Shown here one piece after another: positions 3,601 through 37,197 of a DNA stretch of 45,298 nucleotides (positions are counted from its first letter, which is position 1; each line of letters opens with the position of its first letter). The stretch covers positions 1-45,298 of the forward strand of contig JAPPBT010000021.1 in NCBI GenBank assembly GCA_026702745.1, given 5' to 3'. Both the position numbers and the translations under genes were made by a program. The notes beneath the pieces were generated by a model. It searched no databases, was not told where the DNA came from, and was given only the letters and a program-made list of their open reading frames with translations. This stretch comes from Gemmatimonadota bacterium. GTDB taxonomy: Bacteria; JAAXHH01.

Positions 3601-3759
3601 AACAATGCCGATCTGACACGCGATAAGGCGTTTGTAGACGAACTTAGACTGGCAGAGGGTGCGGATGAGGTCTATGTGAACGGTGATTCCCTTATCCGAG
3701 AAGCAAATGCACTGGAGCCGGAGTTCAAGCGCAGGATGTTCGCAGGCGCTCAGATGTAA
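658..3759 (+). CDS. mod: Type III-like DNA adenine methyltransferase (Mod subunit)
   Basis: Predicted 1033-aa site-specific N6-adenine methyltransferase. Catalytic motif IV is DPPY at residues 503-506. The SAM-binding motif I, DYFAGSGTT, is at 786-794. The order IV before I, with the target-recognition region between, marks a beta-class enzyme. A long N-terminal domain of about 480 residues has no motif I can name; it begins with a DFGIYRIMNHKR segment that I associate with large Mod-type methyltransferases. I chose ATG 658 because AAGG sits 5 bases upstream; a GTG at 631 would add nine residues. The partner helicase-nuclease is at 5383-8526. The unusual point is that four small genes of HEPN/nucleotidyltransferase type separate them. 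G+C is clearly lower than in the genes from 8537 on, as expected for a transferred island. Confidence 0.88.
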   Translation: MSDSISKFQTLLRELFQFDCADLDFGIYRIMNHKRDEIERFITVDLPVNVKEELNRGALAEQAQAAAELEETAQQIRTTLTQDAIDADGNLVKFQDADIGKRYLELREKAHGGGNRDALESVVFNHLYAFFSRYYQEGDFISKPRYSKRHRYAIPYNGEEVHLHWANKDQYYVKTGENFRDYSFQVRDVTVHFKLQAADVEQDNVKGDKRFFFPSNVEPTWDGNNRRLQIGFEFRPLTAQEEITYSKRNQQDAILAEAVEKIPGRLEQAPAALSALMTERRENGDSKPVTVLEHHLKQYTRRNTSDFFIHKDLKGFLDNELDFYLKNEVLILDEVETGGEERAEGWFQIMRMIRSVGRQIIEFLNQIENFQKLLWEKRKFITETQYCISVGHVDQCFYEEVSKCEAQWEEWKTLALLDIGENHTDLFNLTNDYVGKRVEFLQNRPTLPLDTKHFDEDFVDRLLGSFEDLDGMTGGLLIHGENWQALNQLSRMYMGQFKCVHIDPPYNTQTSGFLYKNGYQHSSWLAMMQNRIAATVPLLAQDGSFLCHIDENEYERLYLMVDGFPIRDSGTVVWDKRNPMTGGGGIAIQHEYVIWRSDSTEAFNLRNQSVISILNKAKELVSLNGGLTPESKRSFSKWVVSNPALSGGERAYRFLDENGHVFQSVSLRAPEPRQDPKFHVPLIHPVTGQPCPVPPNGFSRTPETLQRMIEKGEIIFGSDHTTQPRQKRFLTEDSRRQFTSIIQDATRGKLDLKNLNLEDFPYCHSVRFYEGLLAAATPENDSAVLDYFAGSGTTGHAVINLNREDGGQRTFILVEMGDHFDTVLLPRIKKVTFTPEWKDGKPKRMATQEEANRSPSIIKYMRLESYEDALNNIDFAERSGQNALQFNDYLLKYMLRWETKHCSTLLNVENLTQPFNYTLNFHVDGQIRQRIADIPETFNYLIGLRVDTRRVYNSDDRRYLVYRGQIEQRRVVVIWRETQHWNNADLTRDKAFVDELRLAEGADEVYVNGDSLIREANALEPEFKRRMFAGAQM

Positions 3760-3773
3760 AATGGATTCTTTTT

Positions 3774-3811
3774 GATACTGAAGTATTCTGGGATTCTGAC
3801 CTTCAGGTATC
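3774..3811 (+). other. Imperfect inverted repeat between mod and the first MNT gene
   Basis: GATACTGAAG at 3774-3783 pairs with CTTCAGGTATC at 3801-3811, with one bulged G and a 17-base loop. It lies 14 bases after the mod stop and 66 bases before the nucleotidyltransferase start. It has no U-tract, so it could be an RNA structure or protein site that sets the toxin-antitoxin genes apart from mod rather than a strong terminator. Confidence 0.35.
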
Positions 3812-3877
3812 TTGAGATGTGGTTAGGTGGTTCTTGTCCAGTCTGACCTTATCCGGGCTTTTGTAAGGAGTTCTGTT

Positions 3878-4210
3878 ATGGATAATGCCTTTAAACAAGC
3901 AACTCCTATAGTAATCAAGAAGTTGGTGCGAAATGTGGTGAAATGTGTAGATCCTATACGGATTATTCTCTTTGGCTCAGCGGCCAGAGGAGACATGGAA
4001 GCGCATAGCGACCTGGATCTACTCGTCGTTATGCCCGAGGGCGTTCATCGGCGAAGAACGGCGCAGAAACTCTATAGGGAAATTACCGGGCTAGGTGTGC
4101 CATTCGACATTGTCGTTGCAACACCGAATGATCTAGAAAAGCACAGACAGAATGTAGGTTTGATCTACAAAAACGCATTGGAGGAGGGTAAGGAGATATA
4201 TGGCCGTTGA
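3878..4210 (+). CDS. MNT-type nucleotidyltransferase, antitoxin-like (pair 1)
   Basis: A 110-aa minimal nucleotidyltransferase. The fold signature GS-x10-DxD is complete: G33 S34 and D45-x-D47. In HEPN/MNT modules such proteins usually act as antitoxins, some by transferring AMP to the HEPN partner. ATG 3878 is the clear start, with AAGGAG at 3865-3870, 7 bases upstream; an upstream GTG at 3827 lacks such a site. The 3' end overlaps the next gene by 11 bases, typical of translationally coupled partners. All apparent catalytic residues are present, unlike in the second pair at 4735. Confidence 0.88.
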   Translation: MDNAFKQATPIVIKKLVRNVVKCVDPIRIILFGSAARGDMEAHSDLDLLVVMPEGVHRRRTAQKLYREITGLGVPFDIVVATPNDLEKHRQNVGLIYKNALEEGKEIYGR

Positions 4211-4604
4211 CTCTTCCTCTCCAGGCAGTGCCAAAGACTGGCTTCGTCATGCGCGCAGCGACCTGGAACTTGCCTGCATAGACCAGCCGGAAGGCGTCTT
4301 GCTGGAAACCCTCTGTTTCCATGCTCAACAAGCCACGGAGAAAGCCCTGAAGGCCGTTTTTGTGTTTCTTGAAACAGATTTCCCTCGAACGCACAATATA
4401 CGAACATTGCTGGATCTGTTATCGAATCACATCGGCATTCCTCAAGTAGTAGATGCAAGCGCGGGACTTACCGACTATGCCGTTGAATCCCGCTATCCCA
4501 TGAATACCGAACCCGTCGACGAAGAAGAATACCAGCATGCAATCGGTCTCGCCAAATTGGTGGTGCATTGGGCCGAAACATTGATTTGCGAAAACATACG
4601 GTGA
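4200..4604 (+). CDS. HEPN-domain protein, toxin-like (pair 1)
   Basis: A 134-aa HEPN protein of the COG2250 type. Recognisable parts are W-L-x-H-A-x-x-D-L near the N-terminus, the core CFHAQQATEKALKA helix, the P-R-T-H-N-I turn and a late YAVESRYP segment. It overlaps the nucleotidyltransferase gene upstream, and AGGAG lies just before the ATG. HEPN proteins of such pairs are often RNases held in check by the partner. I cannot point to a canonical R-x4-6-H motif here, so nuclease activity is not shown by the sequence. It is followed by a 130-base gap before the second pair. Confidence 0.85.
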   Translation: MAVDSSSPGSAKDWLRHARSDLELACIDQPEGVLLETLCFHAQQATEKALKAVFVFLETDFPRTHNIRTLLDLLSNHIGIPQVVDASAGLTDYAVESRYPMNTEPVDEEEYQHAIGLAKLVVHWAETLICENIR

Positions 4605-4734
4605 GTGGCCATGGTGTTTTGATCGTCTTGGCGTTCATCGTGGACGGTTTACATAGCGGGTTATTGCAAATACCAGCAAATCGAAGTATCGAAACAAGCT
4701 TCTACTAGGTAGTCTTCCCAGAGACAATTCTATC

Positions 4735-5052
4735 TTGGATTTTTACTCGTGTACCTCAAAGCGCAAGATTGCCGAATTCTGTCAGCGCAATCGCATCAAG
4801 CGACTCGCCTTAATCGAATCTATACAACGCGACGCTATCACGCTTGAAAGCGACTTGGACGTACTAGTCGCCTTCGAATCGGATGTCCGTATTGGATACA
4901 TCGGACTGGCCGGTTTAGAGATCGAGCTAATGGAATTGCTCGGGTGGAAGACTGACATTCACACACTAGAGGGAGTAGAAAGAAGCCGCAACTGGTTGCT
5001 TCGCAAGATAATACTCGGTTCGGCGGAGACGGTATATGAGCAGACGAGATGA
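4735..5052 (+). CDS. mntA: MntA-like nucleotidyltransferase with altered active site (pair 2)
   Basis: A 105-aa protein of the COG1669/MntA type. KIAEFC and RIKRLAL match the family N-terminus, SDLDVLVAFE holds the metal-binding D40-x-D42, and LLGWKTDIHTL matches the C-terminal VDLVT region. The signature is usually FGS-x10-DxD, but here residues 27-29 read I-E-S, so the loop glycine is a glutamate. This glycine lies in the nucleotide-binding loop, so activity is probably reduced or lost. The start is uncertain: TTG 4735 is the only usual start codon in a sensible place and has only a weak AGAGA upstream. It overlaps the next gene by 17 bases, the usual antitoxin-toxin layout. Confidence 0.75.
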   Translation: MDFYSCTSKRKIAEFCQRNRIKRLALIESIQRDAITLESDLDVLVAFESDVRIGYIGLAGLEIELMELLGWKTDIHTLEGVERSRNWLLRKIILGSAETVYEQTR

Positions 5053-5383
5053 TCAATTAGCCTTGGTAAAGATGCGGAACCACGCTGCGGAAGCGATAGC
5101 TATACTCGGTGAGTCTAGTTTGAATGATCTCGAAGAAAACCGTGTCACTGAACTTGGATTGTGGAAACTGTTGGAGATTATTGGCGAAGCGGCCAACCGC
5201 ATTTCTGCAGAGACGCAACGACTCCATCAAGAGGTTCCCTGGCCTCAGATCATGGCAATGGGTAACCGAATGGTATACGGCTACGACGACATCAGTCTTG
5301 AAAGATTGTGGGACACAACAAAGTGGGAACTACCGCCACTCGTGAAGCAACTAGATCTCCTTATCGACAAAGAGAATCTATAA
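5036..5383 (+). CDS. hepT: HepT-like (DUF86) HEPN protein lacking the R-x4-H motif (pair 2)
   Basis: A 115-aa protein matching the HepT/DUF86 pattern: ELGLWKLLEIIGEAANRIS, then VPWPQI, then the active-site helix, then a DISLERLWDTT tail. In HepT the active site is R-N-x-x-x-H-x-Y. Here residues 76-83 read G-N-R-M-V-Y-G-Y, so the catalytic Arg is Gly76 and the His is Tyr81, while the last Tyr (Y83, the position AMPylated in studied HepT) remains. RNase activity is therefore doubtful. GGAG at 5025-5028 supports the ATG at 5036. Its stop overlaps the start of the helicase gene (taATG), so it is coupled to Res. Confidence 0.82.
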   Translation: MSRRDDQLALVKMRNHAAEAIAILGESSLNDLEENRVTELGLWKLLEIIGEAANRISAETQRLHQEVPWPQIMAMGNRMVYGYDDISLERLWDTTKWELPPLVKQLDLLIDKENL

Positions 5384-8300
5384 TGCCTTCCGAACAGCAT
5401 ACCAGCCTAGACCGGCGTCTGGTCCTGTTGGCGTGGTTGAATCGCCAGTTCGGATACGAGCAGAACCGCGATCTACTGGTAGATATGAGAGAAGCGGATG
5501 AAGGATTTGACGCCTACGGTCACAGTTCAATCTACCATCGATTGATCAGCCGTGGTGACAAGATAAAGATCCCTCCTGAAATACTCGCCAAATACGACAA
5601 GAACATCCATAAACACCTTATGGCTATGAACGCGCTACGTTCTGAGCCCATAGTCTTGAGATACTTCCAACACTTGGCGGCGTGGTATACGGAGTATGCT
5701 CTTGACAGTTACTTCAACAGACCGGGGCAAACTGTGAGTGCTCTGAACGACTTCGCCAGAGCGCACAATGCACATACTTCGAACCAGATCGCATTCTCAA
5801 AGTCCGATCTGCGCAAGTTGGCTTTCTGGATGGCGACCGGAAGTGGAAAGACGCTTATAATGCACCTCAACTACCGGCAGTTTCTCCACTACAATGATCA
5901 GCAGTTAGACAACATTCTTCTGATAACGCCTAACGAGGGGTTGAGCACACAGCACATTGAAGAAATGACGGCGTCGAACATCCCCTGCCGACGCTTCGAA
6001 CGTCACGGGGACAGCCTGATGTCATCCACCCGCGAGGCGGTCCAGGTCATAGAGATCACCAAACTGACGGAGCAGAAACGTGGCGGTGGAGTAAGCGTCC
6101 CAGTAGAGGCATTCGAAGGCAACAACCTGATTTTCGTTGACGAAGGGCACAAGGGATCCGGTGGTGAGGCTTGGAGGAGAGTACGAGAGGAATTGGGAAA
6201 GACAGGTTACACGTTCGAGTACAGTGCGACGTTCGGCCAGGCGCTATCATCTGCTGGTAATGACGCGCTGACTATAGAATACGGCAAGGCGATCGCCTTC
6301 GACTATTCGTATAGGTACTTTCACGGCGATGGTTACGGGAAAGATTTTCGGGTACTCAATTTGAACGAGGAAACGACATCCGAGTATACCGATCTGCTGT
6401 TACTGGGAAATCTGCTTTCTTTTTACGAACAGCAATGCTTGTTCGAAGCGCGAACCGAAGCGTTACGTACCTACGGACTGGAACGTCCTCTCTCATTGTT
6501 TATAGGTAGAAAGGTAAATGATGTTTACAACCAGAGTGGGGAAAAGCAGAGTGACGTGTTGACTGTAGCTCGTTTCCTGCATTGCGTCCTGAGCAAGCCG
6601 GACTGGGCTGCAGAGGCAATCGGCAGACTCCTCGAAGGAGAGACCGGTCTTTGCACGCCTCATGGACAGGACGTATTTGGCGATCAATTTGGGTATCTTC
6701 GTGCAATGAATCAGAATCCCCAAGAGATATACCGGGATCTGCTCACCTGTGTGTTCCACGCCCCGACATCTGGTGGACTGCATCTATGTGCAATACGCGG
6801 TTCAGACGGTGAAATCGGTCTGAAGGCAAGCACCGCAGATACCTATTTCGGGTTGATCTATATTGGCGACTCTACCGCGTTTAGAAACCTGGCGGGATCA
6901 GATGATTCCGGCATTGTGGTAGAGGAAGATGCGCTTACCGGTGGGTTATTCAACGATATCAATAGCCAAGGCACCACGATCAACGTCCTCATCGGTGCTA
7001 AAAGGTTTATCGAGGGTTGGGATTCCTACAGGGTATCCAATATGGGACTACTAAACGTCGGTAAAAGCGAAGGATCGGAAATCATCCAACTTTTTGGACG
7101 TGGCGTTCGCCTTCGGGGCAAAGACCGTTCCCTTAAAAGGAGTGCCTCTTTAAGTGGCGTCCATCCTGACCGGATCGAACTGCTCGAGACGCTGAATATA
7201 TATGCTGTTAGGGCAAATTACATGGCTCAGTTCCAAGTGTACTTGAATCGAGAAGGTATCGACACCGAAGGATACATCGATCTACCACTTACCATACGTT
7301 CCGAGTCGGATCTCTCAAATATGGGTCTTCTGATCCCCCGCATACCAGCGGATACCGATTTCGCTCGGGAGGAGGATCTTGCACTGACCCCGGATCATAC
7401 GGTACAGGTCCGGGTGGATGTAAGCACAAGGGTTCAGACTCTCGAAAGCGGTGTTGAAGGTGTTGAGACAACCGTCGTCCAGGCAGGCACGGAGACGATC
7501 CTCACCGATGACCTTTTGGAGCTGATCGATTGGGAAAGAGTGTATATCGAACTGCTCGAGTACAAACATTCGAAGGATTTGAAAAACCTGTACATACAGC
7601 CGTCCCTGCTACGGTCCATAATATCGGATAATCTGCATTTCACACTTATAGCAGACGACGACCTGGTCCATCCGAAATCCTTTGAAGAAGTAGCACGCCT
7701 TCAGGAAGTAGTGACTACGATACTGCGCCGTTACGTAGACGCATTCTACCGATCCAGGCAGAGAGCTTGGGAATCGAACCGGATGATTTACAAAATACTG
7801 GACGAACATGACCCCAATCTGCGCTTTAACCATCTCTACTCTTCTGACGGGAAGGGACAATACATCGTTAGTGTCCGGCGGTCCGAAGACTCAATGATCG
7901 AAGAGATTGAAAACCTCATTTCTGGCAACGATCGGATATATCAGGAAGAATCGGCCGAATTACCCCGCCTTCACTTCGACAGGCATCTCTATCAACCATT
8001 GCTGATAGAGCAGAATGAAAAGGTTAAAAGTACACCTCCGGCATTAACAAAAAGTGAGCGAGCATTTGTCACCGATCTGAAAGAATACTGGGTGAGCGAA
8101 AAGGACAAATCCCTGCTGGAAGTCGAGGTTTTTCTTCTGAGGAATCTCAGCCGCGGGACTGGCGTTGGTTTCTTCGAATCGAGCGGATTCTATCCCGATT
8201 TCATCCTCTGGATCAAGGAAACGGGTAAACAACACATCGTATTTATCGAGCCTCACGGTATGATCCACGCAGAAGCATACGAACACGACGAGAAAGCACA

Positions 8301-9328: not shown

Positions 9329-10421
9329 ATCGGTGCTCCAGTTCGGCAGCGGCCGGTTTCTCCGCGCCTTCGCCGACCTCTTCATCCACGAGGCCAGGCA
9401 GGCCGGGCAGGACATCGGCCGGATCGTCGTGGTCCAGTCCACGGGCACCGGGCGGGCGCAGTTGTTCAACGAGCAGCACGGTCGTTACCGGATCCGGGTG
9501 CGGGGGATCCGTGACGGAAAACGGATCGACGAAACCGTCGAGGTGGAGAGCGTCTCGAGGGCTTTGAGTGCCGCGGAGGACTGGGAAGCCGTCCTGGCCG
9601 CGGGGCGCGACCCGTCCACGGAGTATATCCTATCCAACACCTCGGAGACCGGATACGACGTGCCGGAATCGGAACGGCTGGACGGCGAGTCGCCGGTTTC
9701 TTTCCCCGGAAAGCTGCTCACCGTACTCCATGCGCGGTATGAATACGGCGGCGCACCGGTGACCGTCATCCCCTGCGAACTGATCGACGGCAACGCAGGG
9801 GCGTTACGCGGGCTGGTCCGCGACCTGGGCCGGCAACGGCGTCTGGGCGACGGCTTCCTGGGCTGGCTGGAAGAAGGCGTGACCTGGCTGCATACGCTCG
9901 TGGACCGGATCACTATCGAACCGCCGCCGGGTTTTCCCAATCCCCACGGCGACGGGCTGCTGGCGCTGACCGAACCCTTCGCCTTCTGGGCCCTGGAGGA
10001 CCGGCCGGGCGCCGCGCCGTTCATCGAGCATCCGGCCATTACACGCACACCGGACGTCCGTCCCTACGCGCTGCGCAAGGTGCGGGTGCTCAACGGCGCC
10101 CACACGGCGCTGGTCTGCCGGGCCATGCCCCTGGGCATCCGGACCGTCAGGGAGGCGGTCGACCATGGGGACACGGGTCCCTGGCTGCGGGAACTGATGC
10201 TGGAGGAAATCGTGCCGGCCCTGCCGGACGAGGTGGAAGACGCCCGGTCCTTCGCCGAGGATTGCATCGAACGGTTCCGGAATCCATTCCTGGGCCACCG
10301 ACTCGAATCCATCGCGGTGGACCATGAAATCAAGGTGAAGATGCGCCTGGTACCCTCTTACGAAGCATACGTCGAGAAGTTTAAGCGCAAGCCGACCCTG
10401 CTGTCCGCCCTGCTCACGTGA
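9312..10421 (+). CDS. Mannitol dehydrogenase/altronate oxidoreductase-family protein
   Basis: A 369-aa member of the polyol-specific long-chain dehydrogenase family, which includes tagaturonate reductase UxaB and mannitol dehydrogenases. The nucleotide-binding start is VLQFGSGRFLRAF. The catalytic K-x4-N-G-x-H pattern is present as K256, N261, H264 in KVRVLNGAHT. It probably interconverts a keto-sugar or keto-acid with a sugar alcohol or aldonate using NAD(H). The phrase QFG-GxFLRAF favours the UxaB branch, but the substrate cannot be read from sequence. It overlaps mazG by 17 bases and precedes a zinc dehydrogenase gene by 46 bases, which suggests a small sugar-acid operon. Confidence 0.85.
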   Translation: MATPDESVLQFGSGRFLRAFADLFIHEARQAGQDIGRIVVVQSTGTGRAQLFNEQHGRYRIRVRGIRDGKRIDETVEVESVSRALSAAEDWEAVLAAGRDPSTEYILSNTSETGYDVPESERLDGESPVSFPGKLLTVLHARYEYGGAPVTVIPCELIDGNAGALRGLVRDLGRQRRLGDGFLGWLEEGVTWLHTLVDRITIEPPPGFPNPHGDGLLALTEPFAFWALEDRPGAAPFIEHPAITRTPDVRPYALRKVRVLNGAHTALVCRAMPLGIRTVREAVDHGDTGPWLRELMLEEIVPALPDEVEDARSFAEDCIERFRNPFLGHRLESIAVDHEIKVKMRLVPSYEAYVEKFKRKPTLLSALLT

Positions 10422-27704: not shown

Positions 27705-28502
27705 ATGACCACCGAGACGCGGTTGTCAGCAGCACAGAAAACGGCCTTTGACCGGGACGGCTACTTCATCGCGGAGGCATTCCTGTCCGAGGACGAAGTC
27801 GATACCATCCGTCGCGAGATCACGGCGATCGTGGACCGTTACCCGGACGTTCCGGAGGAACTGGTGCAGATCGAGCCGGCCGTACGCCGTGGTGCCGTAA
27901 CGCCCGAATCCACGGAGCTGGGCGTGAGGAAGTTGTTCCGGATGACCCGCCACAGCGAGCTGTTCCACGCCCTGGCCCTCCATCCCAAGATGGCAGGGAT
28001 CGCCGTCGAACTGATCGGACCTGACGTATCCCTGTTTCAGAGCATGCTGCTGATGAAGCCGCCCCGGTTCGGAGGCCAGAAGGTCTGGCACCAGGACAAC
28101 GCCTACTTCCGCCTGGAACCCAACGATGTATTCGGATTCTGGATCGCGCTGGACGACGCCGACGTGGCGAACGGATGCATGCACGTCATTCCGGGGTCGC
28201 ACCGCGCGGGGATCGGAGACCACGGGGGTGTGGCGGACGATTACGGGTTGTCCTCGGCCCCCACGGCGGATGACGCGGTGGCCTGTGTCATGAAGTCAGG
28301 GGACGCCCTCGTGTTCCATGGCGAGACCTACCACTACACGCCGCCGAATACGTCCGACCGCCGCCGAAGGGCGCTCCAGTACCACTACGCTTCCACACAC
28401 TGCCGATCTTCGAAAGACAGTCCGTTCAAGTCCACTGAGCCCGAGGTGATCGTGGCGGGGGCAGGGGCGAGGGCGGCACCGGATGTCGCCCGGTCCGCCT
28501 AG
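27705..28502 (+). CDS. Phytanoyl-CoA dioxygenase (PhyH)-family oxygenase, copy A
   Basis: A 265-aa Fe(II)/2-oxoglutarate oxygenase. The iron triad is H129-x-D131 in WHQDN and a distal His, most likely H210 in HYTPPN; IPGSHR is the usual segment between. It starts 3 bases after the MDR gene and ends with TAG 18 bases before the convergent permease gene. Members hydroxylate small acids or natural-product-like substrates; the substrate here is unknown. Confidence 0.92.
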   Translation: MTTETRLSAAQKTAFDRDGYFIAEAFLSEDEVDTIRREITAIVDRYPDVPEELVQIEPAVRRGAVTPESTELGVRKLFRMTRHSELFHALALHPKMAGIAVELIGPDVSLFQSMLLMKPPRFGGQKVWHQDNAYFRLEPNDVFGFWIALDDADVANGCMHVIPGSHRAGIGDHGGVADDYGLSSAPTADDAVACVMKSGDALVFHGETYHYTPPNTSDRRRRALQYHYASTHCRSSKDSPFKSTEPEVIVAGAGARAAPDVARSA

Positions 28503-28520: not shown

Positions 28521-30281
28521 TTACGATGCGCCGGCCATCGGCGGCCGCACGTCCACCTGAAGGGTGACAATATCGGTATCGTGGTATTGCTGGTGGTGCA
28601 CCGACGAAGCGTAGTGCCTTAAGAGACGGAGTGATATTTCCAATTCCTCCGGCGTCTCCACGGCTCTTTCGTCCCCAAGCAGCTCGATCCTGTCCTGCAG
28701 GTTCCCCTCGCCGGTCGCCGCGACCAGTTCGAGGACCGCGCTTTCGCCCTCACGGTGCGCGACCAGGAGCAGCCGCCGGGGCTGGCTTTGCTCACCGTCC
28801 CGCGGAATCAGCGCCAACAGTGTTTCTTCGCTCGCGGCCATGAGCCGGTCCGCCGTCCCCTTGTCCCAGCCCTGGCGGCTGGCAAATCCTTCAAGAAACT
28901 CACGGATCTTCGGCAGCGCCGCAGGATCGAAATCCGACTCCATCCGGTGACGACGGGGAGATGTGATCTCCAGGAAAAGCGTCATGAGTATGGCGGCCAG
29001 TCCGCCGGCCGTCATGCCGTTCTGCAGGAGGCCGCCTGCGAAATCGGAGACCAGCGCCGGGAAGATCGCGTCATTCTGAAAACCGACGCCGATCCAGAAT
29101 CCTACGCCCACGACCAGCCCCTTCCGGTAGTCGATCCCATCCTGCAGCACCAGCTTCATGCCGATGACGAACAGCATGGAAAGCAGAACGATCAGAAAAC
29201 CGCCGGCAACGGGGTCCGGAATGGCGAGGACGACCGCCAGGAACTTCGGGATAAACGCGACCAGGATGAAGGCCAGCCCCACGACCACCCCGACCATGCG
29301 GGAAGCCACGCCGGTCAACTCGGTCACCGCGATACTCGAGGAATAGGTCGTATTGGGCACCGTGCCCATGAGACCGGACAGCAGGTTGCCCAGACCGTCC
29401 GCGGCCACGGCGCCTTGCACGGCACGGTAATCCACCGCCCGCGGCCTGCGCCAGGAAACGCGCTGTATCGCAACCGAATCGCCGATGGTCTCCACGGCGC
29501 CGACCAGCGTTACGAACATGAAGGCGGGCAGCAGCGCCCAGAAGGCGGGACCGAAAGAGATATCGATGCCCGGCCAACTCCCGTCCGGTAGACCCAGCCA
29601 GGAAGCGGCGGCTACCCGTTCGGCATCGTACAAACCGAAATATCCACCCACGATGGACCCCGCTGCGACGCCGATCACGGGCGCCCAGAGGCGCAGCGAA
29701 GACCTCGCCTTCAATGCGATGCCGAGGGTGACCAGTACGGTGGCCACGGCCGTGACTGCCGCGGACGAGGACGGCATGCCTTCAGGCACCCTGTTCAGCA
29801 TGTTGAACGCGATGGGCATCACGGTGACCGAAATCAGCATGATGACCGTCCCTGAGACCGCGGGCGTCAGTATCCTTCGAAGCAGGGAAAGGCGGGCAGA
29901 CAGCAGGAACTGAAAAAGCGAGGAGATGATGATGAGCGTCGCCATCAGCGCGGGACCGCCTTGCGCGAGCGCCCCGATGCAGACCGCGATAAAGCTGCCC
30001 GACGTTCCCATCATCAGTACGTAGCCCGCGCCGATGCGGCCGACTCGAATGGCCTGAATGATCGTGGTCGTGCCGCTGATCGCCGCCGCGGCGAACACCC
30101 CCCAGGTCAGGAAGGACTCGCTTGCGCCCCCGGCCCGGCTCACGATGGCCACGGTCAGGACCACGCCACCAATCGTAAGCAGGGCGATCTGGAGTCCGAG
30201 GCCGATGGTCAGGAGAAGCGGTGGACGTTCGTCTGCTTCATAGCGTACGCTTGACTGGCGGGCTGAAACATCCGTGGTCAT
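28521..30281 (-). CDS. NCS2-type xanthine/uracil permease with extra C-terminal domain, copy 1
   Basis: A 586-aa protein. Residues about 20-445 form a nucleobase/ascorbate transporter of 12-14 segments, with PNTTYSSSIAVTELTGVASR as the family signature. Substrate-site positions differ from UraA: the TM1 Q-H pair is Q31-I32, the TM8 glutamate is E264, and the TM10 Glu of Y-G-E-N is S315. Residues about 455-578 form a soluble tail not found in standard NCS2 proteins. Its LMAASEETLLAL helix, central beta-rich part and ISLRLLRHYASSVHHQQY end look remotely like RsbW-type GHKL ATPase domains. A good promoter precedes the gene. Copy 2 lies directly upstream. Confidence 0.85.
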   Translation of the reverse strand: MTTDVSARQSSVRYEADERPPLLLTIGLGLQIALLTIGGVVLTVAIVSRAGGASESFLTWGVFAAAAISGTTTIIQAIRVGRIGAGYVLMMGTSGSFIAVCIGALAQGGPALMATLIIISSLFQFLLSARLSLLRRILTPAVSGTVIMLISVTVMPIAFNMLNRVPEGMPSSSAAVTAVATVLVTLGIALKARSSLRLWAPVIGVAAGSIVGGYFGLYDAERVAAASWLGLPDGSWPGIDISFGPAFWALLPAFMFVTLVGAVETIGDSVAIQRVSWRRPRAVDYRAVQGAVAADGLGNLLSGLMGTVPNTTYSSSIAVTELTGVASRMVGVVVGLAFILVAFIPKFLAVVLAIPDPVAGGFLIVLLSMLFVIGMKLVLQDGIDYRKGLVVGVGFWIGVGFQNDAIFPALVSDFAGGLLQNGMTAGGLAAILMTLFLEITSPRRHRMESDFDPAALPKIREFLEGFASRQGWDKGTADRLMAASEETLLALIPRDGEQSQPRRLLLVAHREGESAVLELVAATGEGNLQDRIELLGDERAVETPEELEISLRLLRHYASSVHHQQYHDTDIVTLQVDVRPPMAGAS

Positions 30282-30391
30282 GCAGGGTCCTGTTCAGATT
30301 CAGTGCTACACCTTGTAGCAGGGACTTGGATCGGTCTGCCGACCGAGGAATGGGAATGCTCACGTGCACTGGAATTACGCACAGGATTAGC

Positions 30392-30419
30392 AAAATAAAG
30401 GTACGTGCCAGCGAGTCAA
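30392..30419 (-). promoter_or_regulatory. Predicted sigma70-type promoter for NCS2 copy 1
   Basis: On the minus strand TTGACT (30419-30414) is followed after 16 bases by TATTTT (30397-30392). The site lies in the 191-base gap between the two permease genes and would give copy 1 its own transcript. Confidence 0.5.
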
Positions 30420-30472
30420 GGCATTCCAAAGGCGCAATATCCGGGGAATCACAGGGCGTGCCAATAAATCTG

Positions 30473-32239
30473 CTATTGACGTGATGCGGCGGAATACGGT
30501 TGCCGGACATCGACCTGGAGTGTGATGATATCCGTATCGTGGTATTGCTGGTGGCGGACCGAAGTAGCGAAATGCCTCAGGAGGCGCAGCGAAACCTCCA
30601 TTTCTTCCGGTGTTTCCACGGCTCGCGCGTCACCGAGCAACTCGATCCGGTCCTGGAGGTTGCCTTCGCCGGTTGCCGCGACGAGTTCCAGGATCGCCCG
30701 GTCGTCCTCACGGCGTACGACCAGGAGCAGCCGTCGGCGCTGGCCGGTCTCGCTTTCCCGTGGACTCAGCGTCAACAGCGTTTCCTCGCTGGCGGCCACG
30801 AGCCGGTCCGCCGTCCCCTTGTCCCAGCCCTGCCGGGTGGCGAATGCCTCGAGAAAAGCCCGAATCTTCGGCAGCGCGGCGGTACCGAGGGCGGTCTCCA
30901 TCCGGTACCGTCGGGGAGCGGCCAGTTCCAGAAACAGCGTCATCAGGATCGCCGCAAGTCCGCCTGAAGTCATCCCGTTCCGCAGGAAACCGCCCGCGAA
31001 GTCGGCCACCAGCGCGGGATAAATCGCGTCGTTCTGGAAACCCACGCCGATCCAGAAGCCCACCCCGACGACCAGCCCCTTTCGGTAGTCGATCCCGTCC
31101 TGCACGACCAGCTTCATGCCGATGAGGAAGAGGATGGCCAGCAGCACGAGCAGGAAACTGCCGACGACCGGATTCGGAATGGCGAGGACCACCGCCGGGA
31201 CCTTCGGCACAAACGCGACGAGGATGTAGATCACCCCCACGACCACCCCGACCATGCGGGAGGCCACACCGGTCAGTTCCGTCACCGCGATGCTCGAGGA
31301 GTAGGTGGTATTGGGTATGGTGCCCAGCAGGCCGGAAAGGAAATTACCCGTACCGTCCGCGGCCAGGGCGCCCTGCACCGCCCGATAGTCCACGGCCCGG
31401 GACCGGCGCCACGATATGCGCTGGATCGCGACCGAGTCACCGATCGTATCCACGGCGTCCACCAGCGTTACGAACAGGAAAGCGGGCAGTAGCGCCCAGA
31501 AGGCCGTACCGAAGGAGAGATCGATACCCGGCCAGTGGCCGTCCGGCAATCCGAGCCAGGGCGCGGCGAGCACGCGCTCCGTATCGTAAAGGCCATAGTA
31601 TCCGCCGACGATGGATCCCGTGACCATGCCGATCACCGGCGCCCACAGCCTCAGCGACGACTTGGCCTTCAATGCGATGAATATGGTCACCAACAGGGTC
31701 GCGAGTACCGTGACGGGTGCGGACGATTCCGGGAATCCTTCGGGAACATCGCCCATCATCCTGAAGACGACGGGCGTGATCGAGACCGGGATCAGCATGA
31801 TAACCGTACCGGTGACGACCGGCGTCAGGACCCGGCGAAGCAAGGAAAGGCGGGCGGAAAGCAGGAACTGGAAGAGCGACGCGACGATGATGAGGGTTGC
31901 CATCAGCGCGGGACCGCCCTCCAGCAGCGCCGAAATGCTGATCGCGATGAAACTGCCCGACGTGCCCATCAGAAGCACATAGCCCGCTCCGACGCGTCCG
32001 ACGCGCAAGACCTGGATGATCGTGGTCGTTCCGGTGATCACCGCGGCGGCGAATACCGCCCATGCAAGATAGTCCTCGCCGGCGCCTCCGGCACGGCTCA
32101 CGATGGCCACTTTCAGGAACACGCTTCCCACGGTAAGCAGGGCGAACTGGAGACCGAGTCCGATGGCCAGGAGAAACGGCGGTCTTTCGTCCGCCTCGTA
32201 TCGAACGCCGGACTGGAGGTTTGTGCTACTGTTGTCCAT
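30473..32239 (-). CDS. NCS2-type permease with extra C-terminal domain, copy 2
   Basis: A 588-aa paralogue of the 28521-30281 protein, similar over the whole length including the C-terminal tail, which again begins near residue 455. It differs at a key site: the TM8 acidic residue is D264 in place of E264, while Q31-F32 and S315 match the pattern of copy 1. The tail has VAASEETLLTL and VSLRLLRHFATSVRHQQY. It starts 6 bases after the stop of a PhyH gene, so these two are probably co-transcribed. The pair arose by tandem duplication followed by clear divergence. Confidence 0.85.
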   Translation of the reverse strand: MDNSSTNLQSGVRYEADERPPFLLAIGLGLQFALLTVGSVFLKVAIVSRAGGAGEDYLAWAVFAAAVITGTTTIIQVLRVGRVGAGYVLLMGTSGSFIAISISALLEGGPALMATLIIVASLFQFLLSARLSLLRRVLTPVVTGTVIMLIPVSITPVVFRMMGDVPEGFPESSAPVTVLATLLVTIFIALKAKSSLRLWAPVIGMVTGSIVGGYYGLYDTERVLAAPWLGLPDGHWPGIDLSFGTAFWALLPAFLFVTLVDAVDTIGDSVAIQRISWRRSRAVDYRAVQGALAADGTGNFLSGLLGTIPNTTYSSSIAVTELTGVASRMVGVVVGVIYILVAFVPKVPAVVLAIPNPVVGSFLLVLLAILFLIGMKLVVQDGIDYRKGLVVGVGFWIGVGFQNDAIYPALVADFAGGFLRNGMTSGGLAAILMTLFLELAAPRRYRMETALGTAALPKIRAFLEAFATRQGWDKGTADRLVAASEETLLTLSPRESETGQRRRLLLVVRREDDRAILELVAATGEGNLQDRIELLGDARAVETPEEMEVSLRLLRHFATSVRHQQYHDTDIITLQVDVRQPYSAASRQ

Positions 32240-32245
32240 GGACCT

Positions 32246-33079
32246 TTATACCCGTTCGAACAACCGCTGCCATGCCCCGTGTCCGGTGGCGACCTTCTCC
32301 GGATGCGACCGGCTACGGGCGATAAAGCCCGGAACCTGGTCCCTTCCCGTGGGCTTTCGCCAGTCGCTGTACCGGATATCAAGGCTCCATCGTATGTGAT
32401 CCGAGAAATTCGGCGCGGATCGGTGCACCGTGGTGTGCTGCAAGAGGAGCACGCCGCCCTGGGGAATGGGACAGGATACCCGCTCGCCGGCGGGCAAGGC
32501 GCCTGGTACGATATTCTCCGGTGAGTCCTCGAAGGGCAGCCGTTCACTGCGGTGACTGCCGCGGATGACCTCCAGGCAGCCGTTGCGTTCGTCCGTATCC
32601 ACCAGCGGCAGCCAGAAATTGACCATGAAAGTCTGTATCACGTCCGGTTCCAGGAACCCGATGTCCTGGTGCCAGTTCACGACCGACGTCCTGTCCGGAA
32701 GCTTGGCCCGGGAGTTGAACTGGGGATGGACGAGGATCTCCGGGCCGATGAGGGATTCGACCACGTCCAGGATCTCGGGCAGGGTCATGACATGAAACAT
32801 GCCCGCGGTCTTACGCTTTCCCAGGACGGCCTCGTGCAATTCCCCGCACTGGCCATCCATGGCCTCATGGATCCGGTATAGTCTCCGTTCGAAGGGCTCG
32901 TCCGCAAACCGTTCCGAAAGCCTCCCTTCCGCGTGGAACCGCTCCGCCCAGGTATCGACGACCTCGTTCAATTCCGCGATCAAGGGATCGAGCGAAGTGG
33001 GGTCGAACAGCCTTTCAATCGGCAGGAAGCCGTCTTCAAGATACTGATTGATCTGGTGGTCCGTCAGACCGCTCGCCAT
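32246..33079 (-). CDS. PhyH-family oxygenase, copy B
   Basis: A 277-aa Fe(II)/2-oxoglutarate oxygenase. The triad is H137-x-D139 in NWHQD and H219 in VHRSAPN; the 2-oxoglutarate-binding Arg lies in the HIRWSLD segment. I prefer ATG 33079, which has GAGG 9 bases upstream; the in-frame ATG at 33088 directly follows GAGG with no spacing. It precedes the NCS2 copy 2 gene by 6 bases, so the transporter may import its substrate or a related compound. Confidence 0.9.
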   Translation of the reverse strand: MASGLTDHQINQYLEDGFLPIERLFDPTSLDPLIAELNEVVDTWAERFHAEGRLSERFADEPFERRLYRIHEAMDGQCGELHEAVLGKRKTAGMFHVMTLPEILDVVESLIGPEILVHPQFNSRAKLPDRTSVVNWHQDIGFLEPDVIQTFMVNFWLPLVDTDERNGCLEVIRGSHRSERLPFEDSPENIVPGALPAGERVSCPIPQGGVLLLQHTTVHRSAPNFSDHIRWSLDIRYSDWRKPTGRDQVPGFIARSRSHPEKVATGHGAWQRLFERV

Positions 33080-33128
33080 GACATGCATCCTCGAAGTGGC
33101 GGGACCAGGTTAGGTCCGGTTAAGTCCA

Positions 33129-33236: not shown

Positions 33237-34463
33237 ATGGCTTTCGACCTGGTGCTGACAGGGGCGACGATCATCGATCCGTCCCAACAGAAGAACGAAA
33301 AAGGCGACGTAGGCATCAGAGACGGCAAAATCGCCGCGGTTTCCGATCATCTCGAGGCCGGCGCAGATACGACCATCGACGTATCGGGCAAGTACCTTAC
33401 GCCCGGCTGGATCGATCTGCACGCCCACGTATACGCCGGCGCCACGACCTTCGGCATCAAGGCCGACGCTCTCTGCCTGGCCACTGGCGTAACCACCATC
33501 GTGGACGCCGGAAGTCCGGGATGGACCAACCTGCGCGGCTTTCTCGAGTTCATCGTCGAACCCTCCCGGACCGAAGTGCTCACCTTCGTCCATATCAGTA
33601 GCATCGGGCTCCTGAATTCCATGCGCGGCGAGATGGAGGACATCAAAAACGCCGATCCCGAGCGTACGGCCCGGGTCATTTCGATGTGGCCGCGGCACTG
33701 TGTCGGCGTCAAGGTCCGGCAGGGGGCTTTCCAGGTGGGAAGCCACGGCGTGGAGCCGCTCCGGAGGGCCGTCGAAGCCGCCGAGATGGCGGACACCCGG
33801 GTAATGGTACACATCGACAAGGGCGTCGCCCTGCCGGATATCCTGGAACTGCTTCGTCCGGGCGATGTGGTGACTCACTGCTACCAGGGCAAGGGAGATC
33901 ATATCCTCGGCGACGACGACCGGGTGATTCCCGAGGTATACGAAGCCAGAGAACGCGGCGTGTTCTTCGACCTTGGACACGGCGCCGGGAGTTTTCATTA
34001 CGGCATCGCCAAAAGGGCGGTCGAACTGGGTTTCCTGTCCGACGTGATCAGTACCGACCTGCACGTCTACAGCCTGAGATCGCCGGTGTACAGTCTTCCT
34101 GAAACGGCATCCAAACTGCTGAACATGGGGCTGGATTTCGAGGAGATCGTCCGCCAGACGACATCAAATCCCGCGGGAGTACTGAACCGATCGGATGATA
34201 TCGGCACGCTGAAGGAGGGAAGCGTCGCCGACATCGCCGTTTTCGACCTGGAAGAAGGTCGTTATACCTTTACCGATGCCCACGGCCGGCAGGAAATCGG
34301 GCCCAGCATGATCACCCCGCATCTTACCGTACGGGCCGGACAGGTGTACTATCCGGACGACGTGAAAGACGAGGTGGTGGAGACGGAGCGCCGCGCCGAA
34401 GAGATGGTGGGGATCACCGGGGTGCCCTACGGGACCATCCGGGACATAAAGAAAGTGCAGTGA
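33237..34463 (+). CDS. COG3964-type metallo-amidohydrolase/deacetylase
   Basis: A 408-aa amidohydrolase-superfamily enzyme with a dihydroorotase-like metal site. Visible ligands are H62-x-H64 in DLHAH, K159 (candidate bridging carboxylated lysine), H192, H214 and D274 in STDLH. The C-terminal GTLKEGSVADIAVFDLE is typical of the superfamily. The family hydrolyses N- or O-acyl groups of small acids. GGAGG is 6 bases before the ATG. The stop is followed by a long purine-rich gap. Confidence 0.9.
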   Translation: MAFDLVLTGATIIDPSQQKNEKGDVGIRDGKIAAVSDHLEAGADTTIDVSGKYLTPGWIDLHAHVYAGATTFGIKADALCLATGVTTIVDAGSPGWTNLRGFLEFIVEPSRTEVLTFVHISSIGLLNSMRGEMEDIKNADPERTARVISMWPRHCVGVKVRQGAFQVGSHGVEPLRRAVEAAEMADTRVMVHIDKGVALPDILELLRPGDVVTHCYQGKGDHILGDDDRVIPEVYEARERGVFFDLGHGAGSFHYGIAKRAVELGFLSDVISTDLHVYSLRSPVYSLPETASKLLNMGLDFEEIVRQTTSNPAGVLNRSDDIGTLKEGSVADIAVFDLEEGRYTFTDAHGRQEIGPSMITPHLTVRAGQVYYPDDVKDEVVETERRAEEMVGITGVPYGTIRDIKKVQ

Positions 34464-34881
34464 GTACGAAAACGACGGCGCTTTTCATGAATTTCTATAT
34501 ATCTCGATACTGCGAATAAGTGTAGTTCGATTAGTACTAATATTATCTGTTTTATTTTATTATATATTGATACGTTCAAAGTTAAGTCGAACAGGACTCA
34601 GGAGATGAGAAAACCCAGACCGGACGGAATGAGGGGAAAAGGGAATGAAGGAGGAAGTGAAAAGGAGCGGATGGCGCGGAAACCGTAAAAACGGGATGGC
34701 CCGGTGAAAACGATAGTACGTTTCGTATTAAAGAAGGATGGGAGACTGGACCTGACCAAAAAATGCACCGGATGAGCAGAGACCGGATGAAAAGAAGGAC
34801 GAAATCGGAATTCGGCCCGATGAAACCAGAACCGAAACCTTTTTCCGACCCACTAACCTATCACGAGGGAGGTTGCCGGCC
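34464..34881 (+). other. 418-base gene-free leader, AT-rich then purine-rich
   Basis: The first 110 bases are strongly AT-rich for this genome. From about 34600 to 34860 the plus strand is very purine-rich, with ACCGGATGA at 34770-34778 and again at 34785-34793. Only tiny open frames occur, for example 27 codons from 34605, and none looks like a gene. GGGAGG at 34867-34872 serves the next gene. It could be a long structured leader, but I recognise no riboswitch. Confidence 0.55.
34530..34541. promoter_or_regulatory. Perfect 12-base palindrome, possible operator
   Basis: ATTAGTACTAAT is its own reverse complement and lies in the AT-rich half of the gap before the enolase-superfamily gene. A palindrome of this size is a plausible dimeric regulator site. 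No regulator gene is adjacent. Confidence 0.35.
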
Positions 34882-36033
34882 ATGACCCCGGAAATTATCA
34901 AAATTGAAACCGTTGTATTCCAGTACACCGTCGAAAACATGGGCGTGGACTACAACGGATTCAACCTGGTGTACGAGAAAGGCGCCACGCGCAAACTCGG
35001 CGGCGGCCTGTTGCGGATACACACCAACCTGGGGATCGTCGGCGAATACCTGGGCGGTCCCTCGCCGTCGGGACCGGCGGTCAAGTACCTGCTGGGCCGC
35101 AATCCCTTCGAACGGGAGAAGATCTACAACGATCTGAAGCGTGGCCTGCGGCATACCGACCGTACCCAGATCGGCGCGGTGGACGTGGCGTTGTGGGACT
35201 TCGCCGGGAAGTACTACAACGCGCCGGTCTACCAGTTGCTGGGCGGTTACCGGACCGCCCTGCCGGCTTACGCGAGCACGTACCACGGCGACGAAAACGA
35301 CGGGCTGCACACGCCCGAGGCCTTCGCGGACTTCGCCGAACAGTGCCGGGACCTGGGATACCGCGCCTTCAAGATCCATGGCTGGGGCAACGCCCCCATC
35401 GAGCGAGAGGTCGCCAACGTGAAAGTCACGGGAAAGCGCGTGGGAGACGGCATGGACCTCATGATCGATCCCGCCTGTGAATACAATACCTGGGCGGACG
35501 CGCTCAAGGTGGGCCGGGCCTGCGATGAAGCCGGGTTCTTCTGGCTGGAGGATCCTTACAAGGACGGCGGCGTGTCCATTTTCGGCCACAAGAAGCTGCG
35601 GGAACACATCACCACGCCGATCCTGCAGACCGAGCACATCTTCGGCCTGGAGCAGCACGTCGATTTCGTCGTGAACGGGGGAACGGACTTCGTGCGGTCC
35701 GGGGTCTACGAGGACGGCGGCATCACCGGCGTGATGAAGATCGCCCACGCGGCCGAGGGACTCGGGCTGGACATGGAACTTCACGGCGGCGGCCTCGCCC
35801 ACCGCCATATCATGGCATCCGTCCGGAACAGCAACTACTACGAACTGGGGCTCGTGCATCCCGGTATCACGAAGAACAAGCCGCCCGTCTACGCGCCCGA
35901 ATTCACCGATGAGCTGGAGAACATCGATGAACACGGATGCGTTCCTGTCCCCCAGGGCCCGGGTCTGGGCGCTGAAATCGACCGGGATTACATCGAGGCG
36001 CATCGCATCGATACGATCGTTCACGAGGTGTAG
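34882..36033 (+). CDS. Mandelate racemase/enolase-superfamily enzyme
   Basis: A 383-aa enolase-superfamily protein, probably an acid-sugar dehydratase. Metal ligands are D196 (MIDP), E223 (WLEDP) and E251 (QTEH). The acid-base residues are K164-x-H166 in FKIHGWG and H301 in ELHGGG, the mandelate racemase pattern. GGGAGG lies 9 bases before ATG 34882. Substrate unknown; sugar acids are likely, given the aldolase at 37199. Confidence 0.9.
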   Translation: MTPEIIKIETVVFQYTVENMGVDYNGFNLVYEKGATRKLGGGLLRIHTNLGIVGEYLGGPSPSGPAVKYLLGRNPFEREKIYNDLKRGLRHTDRTQIGAVDVALWDFAGKYYNAPVYQLLGGYRTALPAYASTYHGDENDGLHTPEAFADFAEQCRDLGYRAFKIHGWGNAPIEREVANVKVTGKRVGDGMDLMIDPACEYNTWADALKVGRACDEAGFFWLEDPYKDGGVSIFGHKKLREHITTPILQTEHIFGLEQHVDFVVNGGTDFVRSGVYEDGGITGVMKIAHAAEGLGLDMELHGGGLAHRHIMASVRNSNYYELGLVHPGITKNKPPVYAPEFTDELENIDEHGCVPVPQGPGLGAEIDRDYIEAHRIDTIVHEV

Positions 36034-36079: not shown

Positions 36080-36916
36080 CTACGCGCCGGCCAGCATGTC
36101 CCGTACCCGCTTGACGACCTGCTTCTCGTCGCGGGTCATTTTCTCCAGTTCGTACATATCGTCCGACAGTTTCTCGCGGTGCTCTTCCAGCGGATACAGG
36201 TGGGGCAGGTCGAAGAACCAGCTGAAAACGTACCGCTGGAAGATGTTCAGGCGGGGATAGTCCTGGGTCCACGGACTGGCGTTGTGAAGCAGGCGGGTAG
36301 AGAAGATGATGACGTCCCCCGCCTTCATGGGGATCGTGATAGACGTGGGAGGATCGTGCTCGACAGGTAGTCCTTCCGGTTCCGGCACCGTGGTCTTGTG
36401 ACTGCCCGGCACCAGGCAGAATCCCGTACCGGGCGGCACGTCCGCCAGGGCGACCCACGTGGCCAGGTGGCTGCAGTAGATCTCGCCGTCCGCCACCTGG
36501 AAATCGTTGTTGGGATTGCGGAATCCGTGGGTGACCTTGACCCCGTCGTCATCCCGGTGAAAGTGCAGTTCTTCCGGGCCCTTGACCATGTGGGTGAATA
36601 CGCAGTGCATAAGGCGGGGACAACCCCAGGTCAACCCGGCCACCACGCGGATGATCTCCGGGTTCATGTTGAGCCGCTGGAACACCTCGTGGCCGTAGTG
36701 GATATGGCCGATATGGGTCTTGTTCGGCTCCTGGCGCCCCCGCTTGAGTGGCGCGGGAAGTTCCTTCTCGTCCGCGTTCAACCAGCCTTCCAAGACCGGA
36801 CGCATCTCGGACAGGTCGGCGTCCGGAACAACGCCGGTCAGCAGCAGGTAGCCCTGCAGCTCGAAATGCCACTTCTCTTCCGGTGACAGGAAGGACACCG
36901 GCATCTGTGTCGTCAT
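36080..36916 (-). CDS. PhyH-family oxygenase, copy C
   Basis: A 278-aa Fe(II)/2-oxoglutarate oxygenase with H120-R-D122 in FHRDDD and H211 in LLHNASP. I chose the ATG at 36916 because it overlaps the preceding stop as ATGA; an in-frame ATG at 36934 would extend into the upstream gene. It is the last gene of the aldolase/Kelch-fragment/PhyH operon and is convergent with the enolase-superfamily gene. Confidence 0.9.
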   Translation of the reverse strand: MTTQMPVSFLSPEEKWHFELQGYLLLTGVVPDADLSEMRPVLEGWLNADEKELPAPLKRGRQEPNKTHIGHIHYGHEVFQRLNMNPEIIRVVAGLTWGCPRLMHCVFTHMVKGPEELHFHRDDDGVKVTHGFRNPNNDFQVADGEIYCSHLATWVALADVPPGTGFCLVPGSHKTTVPEPEGLPVEHDPPTSITIPMKAGDVIIFSTRLLHNASPWTQDYPRLNIFQRYVFSWFFDLPHLYPLEEHREKLSDDMYELEKMTRDEKQVVKRVRDMLAGA

Positions 36917-37197
36917 ACCCGTTCCAGCTTCCACACGTCCGAGGCCATGTGACTGCCCGCCCAGTCCCGCTTCGTATCGAAGGCACTGTCCAGGTAGGTG
37001 TTGGGCTTCACCAGCGACCAGTCCCGCCCGTCGGTGGACCGCCAGACATCATTGCTGCAGACCCTGGGGTAATGGCGCTTGTCGCGCGGATTCCAACCGT
37101 CGATCAGCCACATGGCGTCGTCGAAAACCAACGCGCCGGCCCCGTCACGGGGCGCGAAGGAGGCGCGGGCGGTTACCTGCGTCCAATGATAAGCCAA
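36913..37197 (-). CDS. Short Kelch/galactose-oxidase-like fragment
   Basis: A 94-aa product starting at TTG. A single beta-propeller blade-like stretch is visible: R-D-G-A-G-A-L-V-F-D-D-A-M-W-L-I-D-G-W, then SNDVWRSTDGRDWSL. Full proteins of this kind have several such blades and usually over 300 residues, so this is either a small stand-alone protein or the remnant of a longer gene. It fits tightly in the operon, 1 base after the aldolase stop and overlapping the PhyH start, which argues for it still being translated. Confidence 0.6.
   Translation of the reverse strand: MAYHWTQVTARASFAPRDGAGALVFDDAMWLIDGWNPRDKRHYPRVCSNDVWRSTDGRDWSLVKPNTYLDSAFDTKRDWAGSHMASDVWKLERV

Follow-up and report, generated by a model that had tools for sequence, protein, structure and literature searches.

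The window analysed here is a stretch of 45,298 nucleotides from a Gemmatimonadota bacterium (GCA_026702745.1, contig JAPPBT010000021.1), in which two adjacent genes encode membrane carriers of the NCS2 family. Each carrier ends in a small tail that is predicted to have the fold of the anti-sigma kinases RsbW and SpoIIAB and that lacks the ATP-binding motifs of these kinases. Genes for a STAS protein, a SpoIIE phosphatase and an RsbW kinase co-occur with the tail and at some loci lie beside the carrier gene. We propose a partner-switching pathway with a transporter as its output, in which the STAS protein would dock on the pseudo-kinase tail, and we give this reading about an even chance of being correct.

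The two carrier genes lie on the reverse strand with intact reading frames. Copy A (588 residues) is encoded at 30473..32239, with its tail at 30503..30904, and copy B (586 residues) at 28521..30281, with a tail of the same type at 28545..28946. Their assignment to NCS2, first made from the sequence alone, is borne out by Pfam, where PF00860 matches residues 26-400 and 27-400 with 164 and 168 bits against a cut-off of 27. The only other carrier-core family that Pfam matches is PF00916, weakly and in copy A. When the full-length model of copy A was used for a fold search, UapA and UraA came out on top, with SLC26 among the matches. In this model the last transmembrane helix (TM14) ends near residue 440 and the first tail strand starts near residue 445, placing a small alpha/beta domain of about 135 residues directly after TM14; the original prediction had recognised this extension but gave it only about 125 residues. 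The sequence motifs quoted in that prediction (ASEETLL, ATGEGNLQDRI, LRLLRHxAxSV and I-V/I-TLQV) are all present in the tails. The arginines that follow TM14 are invariant and fit the positive-inside rule, and for this reason the tail is expected to be cytoplasmic.

The tail was modelled with AlphaFold from an alignment of 45 tail sequences (pLDDT 79). The order of secondary structure elements in the model (strand, helix, helix, strand, strand, helix, helix, strand, strand) is that of RsbW. The best Foldseek matches are UsfX (9.7e-8), RsbW (2.5e-7) and SpoIIAB (1.1e-5), and the VIA-align Z values are 15.4 for RsbW over 114 residues, 14.8 for UsfX and 13.8 for SpoIIAB, with lower values for SiaB (11.4) and LvrC (10.3) and none above 7.8 among the remaining rows listed. 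These matches cover the whole domain, bearing out the suspected likeness to RsbW/HATPase_c_2; the structural check for a Bergerat fold is positive, and the modelled tail is assigned to the RsbW/SpoIIAB kind of this fold. At the sequence level, Pfam HATPase_c_2 matches 28 of the 45 family tails at E<=1 (best 2.3e-6), and the diverged tail of an alphaproteobacterial locus, L225, exceeds the curated cut-off of PF13581 (27.4 bits) with 32.4 bits. When a profile was built from 38 RsbW proteins of the modules described below, 89/95 tails matched it at E<=10 and seven did so at E<=1e-3, whereas 950 shuffled and 95 reversed tails gave no match at all. Both these controls and the fold rule out a chance resemblance to RsbW. 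NCBIfam gave no match for the tail.

The residues of the former ATP site were compared by aligning the 95 tails with the 38 module RsbW proteins. All 38 RsbWs have the N-box Asn, G1 Asp and G2 glycines, and none of the 95 tails has any of them; with these three ATP motifs gone, a simple nucleotide-binding tail is rejected. Of the N-box, the Glu remains in 94/95 tails. Other positions are fixed to new residues: H118 is found in 95/95 tails where 37/38 RsbWs have Tyr, Q120 in 94/95 where 37/38 have Arg, and D125 in 91/95 where 38/38 have Asn, while N82 is present in 94/95. Most of the fixed positions hold as well in seven distantly related tails from other genomes. Judged from these alignments, the change is one of replacement under constraint rather than of decay. 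Of the ATP motifs only the N-box Glu survives, while N82, H118 and Q120 are near-invariant; we therefore regard the tail as a pseudo-kinase whose pocket has been rebuilt, and not as a canonical nucleotide-binding kinase. The tail was originally suggested to bind either a nucleotide or a partner; with the motifs lost in 95/95 tails, the sequences favour the second option.

A rebuilt pocket might instead make the tail a small-molecule sensor, in which a metabolite, for instance the transport substrate or something made from it downstream, would bind at the N-box Glu, N82, S105, H118 and Q120 and exert feedback on the carrier with no partner protein involved. In favour of such a pocket, the new residues at the N-box, G1 and G2 positions are near-invariant across phyla, even at about 25% tail identity, and show no decay. 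We nevertheless consider this explanation unlikely, as it does not account for the STAS, SpoIIE and RsbW genes beside the carrier or for a four-gene operon at L225. Still less probable is a structural tail that stabilises or dimerises the carrier, as has been proposed for the STAS domain of SLC26, with the conserved residues merely keeping the fold. RsbW-type domains homodimerise and NCS2 carriers are dimeric, which would suit such a role. However, E41, N82, H118 and Q120 are near-invariant polar residues at former catalytic positions, and the genetic linkage to switch genes would have no place in it.

This linkage was found in the surroundings of 77 loci, the best of at least 493 relatives detected in a scan of named genomes, a selection that leans to close relatives. 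The original prediction had pointed to the vicinity of homologues as the place to look for STAS or sigma regulators, and STAS, RsbW and SpoIIE genes are present there. Clustering of open reading frames (ORFs) and Pfam assignments identify as recurrent carrier neighbours a STAS protein, a REC-SpoIIE phosphatase, an RsbW kinase, a Peripla_BP_6 binding protein and a HAMP-HisKA kinase. At least one STAS, RsbW or SpoIIE gene lies in the examined flank of 18/77 loci, in two arrangements or as STAS alone. In Nitrospirota (10 loci) a divergent RsbW gene is followed by STAS, SpoIIE, binding protein and kinase genes where the contig allows, whereas in Nitrospinota and two other bacteria (6 loci, 2 of them truncated) a run of SpoIIE, RsbW, binding protein and kinase genes accompanies the carrier; two Rhodospirillales have STAS genes after the carriers. 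By chance, about 0.3% would be expected per 12-kb locus if the module occurs about once in 4 Mb, which is our own rough figure, and the observed linkage is far above this estimate even with a single count per lineage.

The strongest example is the alphaproteobacterial locus L225. Here the genes for a binding protein (511-1758), a single TorS_sensor-HAMP-SpoIIE-HATPase_c_2 protein (1755-4274), a STAS protein (4286-4624) and an NCS2 carrier with tail (4711-6447) follow each other at intergenic distances of -4, 11 and 86 bases, with no separate kinase gene between them. These four genes form an operon.

Other features of the carrier flanks were recorded as well. In loci of the Nitrospinota type a second REC-like stretch precedes the full SpoIIE gene (L081 7688-8188, L091 1871-2335, L092 7127-7600). 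At L227 (5139-8979) and L228 (3910-8025) the gene immediately after a diverged NCS2 carrier with tail encodes a sensor histidine kinase, in place of the STAS module. TRAP transporter genes (DctP, DctM) adjoin the carrier in 13/77 loci, including L103, L109, L113, L115, L121 and L143.

The genome of the window has its own copy of the module. On contig C19, genes for STAS, REC-SpoIIE, RsbW, a Peripla_BP_6 protein and a TorS_sensor-HAMP-HisKA kinase stand in a row (locus L162, C19:44500-54996, module operon at 4401-9884 of L162 with the STAS gene at 9549-9884 on the minus strand), making the partner-switching set of RsbW, STAS with its serine and SpoIIE complete. The phospho-acceptor Ser is present in 48/48 STAS proteins. 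Between phyla the binding protein of the module keeps an identity of about 56-73%, and a single common ligand is suggested by this.

Across genomes, module and tail co-occur. A REC-SpoIIE protein at E<=1e-60 is found in 11/12 tail-bearing genomes of the window's genus and in 0/4 tail-less relatives, and the same threshold is reached in 36/39 further genomes with the tail, 30 of which pass E<=1e-100; the 39 genomes account for 40 of the 77 loci, and two of them are identical in assembly with G006 and G009. In a draw of 369 genomes of the gammaproteobacterial class, REC-SpoIIE at E<=1e-100 occurs in four, of which two are strong tail carriers and two have no tail. Among 385 Alphaproteobacteria, STAS at E<=1e-18 is present in 15/18 tail genomes and in 13/367 others (Fisher p 8e-17, a value that is too small because the genomes are related and not independent). 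The 13 best STAS matches in this draw (E<=2e-24, a threshold set after seeing the list, the weakest of the 13 being 1.7e-24) all come from tail carriers.

We propose the following mechanism. An outside ligand would be detected by the Peripla_BP_6 protein together with the TorS-type sensor histidine kinase, which would then act on the REC-SpoIIE phosphatase. Phosphate would be removed from the STAS serine by SpoIIE and added to it by RsbW, and three or four transporter paralogues would compete, through their pseudo-RsbW tails, with the true RsbW for the unphosphorylated STAS. The tail itself would descend from an RsbW-type anti-sigma kinase and have lost its catalytic activity. STAS proteins recognise RsbW-type domains, as in SpoIIAB-SpoIIAA and RsbW-RsbV, and we infer a STAS docking site on the tail because this dead RsbW copy is co-inherited, and at places co-transcribed, with STAS and the enzymes of its phosphorylation. 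Bound to the tail, STAS may either open or close the carrier. A STAS partner switch would in this way control transport in place of a sigma factor. No sigma-factor domain was found among eight scanned flanking ORFs of L225 and L162, though a sigma gene may lie farther away.

The same gene linkage could also arise if the carrier were a transceptor, whose transport conformation would alter the sequestration of STAS by the tail or the pairing of the tail with RsbW while the pathway has another output. Fusions of transporters with kinases that sense solutes are known, as in the SLC5/STAC kinases (PMC9100948). The module, however, already has its own outside sensor in the binding protein and the TorS-type domain, and the flanking ORFs scanned at L225 and L162 contain no sigma factor or other obvious target. 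We regard a transceptor as rather improbable, though less so than a purely structural tail.

Several observations weigh against docking of STAS on the tail as the output of the pathway. Binding itself is proposed from fold and genetic linkage. In the window's genome the module and the transporters are on different contigs, and 59/77 loci have no module gene in the examined flank, some flanks being short. The module is present without the tail in G159 and G375; conversely, tails occur without a close SpoIIE in G002 of the genus and in G027, G032 and G051 of the 39 other genomes, and without a close STAS in G461, G536 and G802. The relatedness of the genomes counts here too. As to the fold, both window tails stay under the Pfam HATPase_c_2 cut-off, with 14.7 bits for copy B (E 0.033) and no match for copy A; a 45-row tail profile run against PDB sequences returned unrelated chains and no RsbW; and hhalign of the tail with two RsbWs gave a probability of 11%.

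The proposed pathway can be compared with known systems. With RsbW, SpoIIAB and UsfX the tail shares the fold of the whole domain, the N-box Glu and linked STAS and SpoIIE genes; it differs in being fused to a transporter, in the loss of the ATP motifs and in that no sigma factor was seen close by. The main known role of partner switching is to control transcription. BtrW/BtrV, SiaABCD and SypE/SypA are partner-switching modules with non-sigma outputs, and they have a SpoIIE phosphatase, an RsbW-type kinase and a STAS protein in common with the present module, which is set apart by its candidate output, a membrane carrier bearing its own pseudo-RsbW receptor. SLC26/SulP transporters have a related fold of 7+7 transmembrane helices and, like the window carriers, a domain of the partner-switching type after TM14. 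Theirs is a C-terminal STAS, whereas the present tail resembles the RsbW-like partner of STAS and the core sequence is that of NCS2. The role of STAS in SLC26 carriers is described as incompletely explored in PMC8256260.

Carriers fused to a signalling domain of the GHKL type are also found in the SLC5/STAC kinases CbrA and CrbS. CbrA and CrbS act as sensor kinases and have response regulators of their own, in contrast to the window proteins, which have no HisKA domain, no SLC5 core and a dead ATP site. In TorT/TorS a periplasmic binding protein stands beside a kinase with a TorS_sensor domain, much as one stands beside a kinase or phosphatase with this domain here, but in the present module the binding protein is of the Peripla_BP_6 family and the output is SpoIIE/STAS. 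Our literature search, with subscription literature mostly outside it, found no published system of this kind with a transporter as output. If the proposal is right, STAS docking on a carrier tail would be a fast post-translational output of partner switching and would mirror the SLC26 carriers, in which the carrier bears STAS, the other member of the pair. Since the components are small and soluble, binding could be tested without culturing the host.

The solved members UapA and UraA belong to the same core family and fold as the window carriers but end after the carrier domain, and the window family differs from them both in the added tail and in residues of TM8 and TM10. The TM8 Glu and the TM10 Gln/Glu are substrate residues of nucleobase carriers, and we take the positions aligned to them to be equivalent. 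Among 88 carriers, the TM8 position is occupied by E (39), Q (29), D (9), R (9) or K (2), with E in copy B and D in copy A; the TM10 position is mostly Thr (51) or Ser (20). The carriers are NCS2 members by fold and sequence, which does not imply nucleobase transport. Since these substrate positions vary, the paralogues probably carry different solutes.

The tail is not an oddity of the two window copies. Both carry it, as originally noted, but they belong to a family of many phyla, and any special status of the pair is rejected by the occurrence of the tail throughout the genus and beyond. Five PF00860 proteins were found in the window's genome, four of them with the tail, which is present in 12/12 genomes of the genus at three or four copies each and in 0/4 genomes from other genera of the same phylum. 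The 77 best loci represent about ten phyla, and in all 77 the tail is fused to the same carrier core. In evenly drawn genome sets the tail is rare: it was found in 3/369 genomes of the gammaproteobacterial class, 18/385 Alphaproteobacteria and 13/365 Nitrospirota, counts that include centre genomes and some carriers already known.

Sponge origin was verified for 4/77 records, and the isolate names of many others look like those of sponge projects. The four verified records, bins 18, 75, 107 and 129 (L078, L084, L118 and L125), are symbionts of the sponge Aplysina aerophoba according to a table in PMC5649159. Among the 77 best loci, the nearest named relative of copy B has the prefix JAAXHH01, a GTDB phylum reported from freshwater and marine samples, sponge tissue and hypoxic seawater in PMC11382960. 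It is a tentative suggestion, held with somewhat less confidence than the docking of STAS on the tail, that one network is read by the tails of several NCS2 carriers with different substrates and has spread among unrelated phyla dwelling in sponges. Many symbionts would then tune uptake to the same host-derived signal, and the conserved binding protein would offer a handle on the outside molecule that they sense.

A quick tree of the family, with long branches and with conflicting phylum labels of the metagenome-assembled genomes, requires 14 changes for nine phylum labels where the minimum is eight. On it the third tailed copy of the window's genome (L004, contig C10) groups with Acidobacteriota sequences. 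The tree suggests transfer between phyla, a reading weakened by the labels and by paralogy. The titles of L072, L073, L075 and L076 are split between Gemmatimonadetes and Latescibacterota for what is apparently one genus. One carrier copy of another genome (G004:C49:65529-67292) has a single in-frame TGA inside the match, possibly marking a pseudogene or an assembly error.

In the window, a PhyH-family dioxygenase gene (32246..33088, reverse strand) lies six bases upstream of copy A and, to judge by the spacing, is probably transcribed together with both carrier genes. Further PhyH-family dioxygenase genes are found near the carriers at 27705-28502 and 36080-36934. PhyH was rejected as a general partner of the carrier, a matching cluster of presumed PhyH genes being present in only 10/77 loci and centred on the window's own genus. 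An amidohydrolase gene (33237-34463) and a mandelate racemase-type gene (34873-36033) are also located near the carriers and the PhyH genes, and together these genes around the carriers may constitute a catabolic island.

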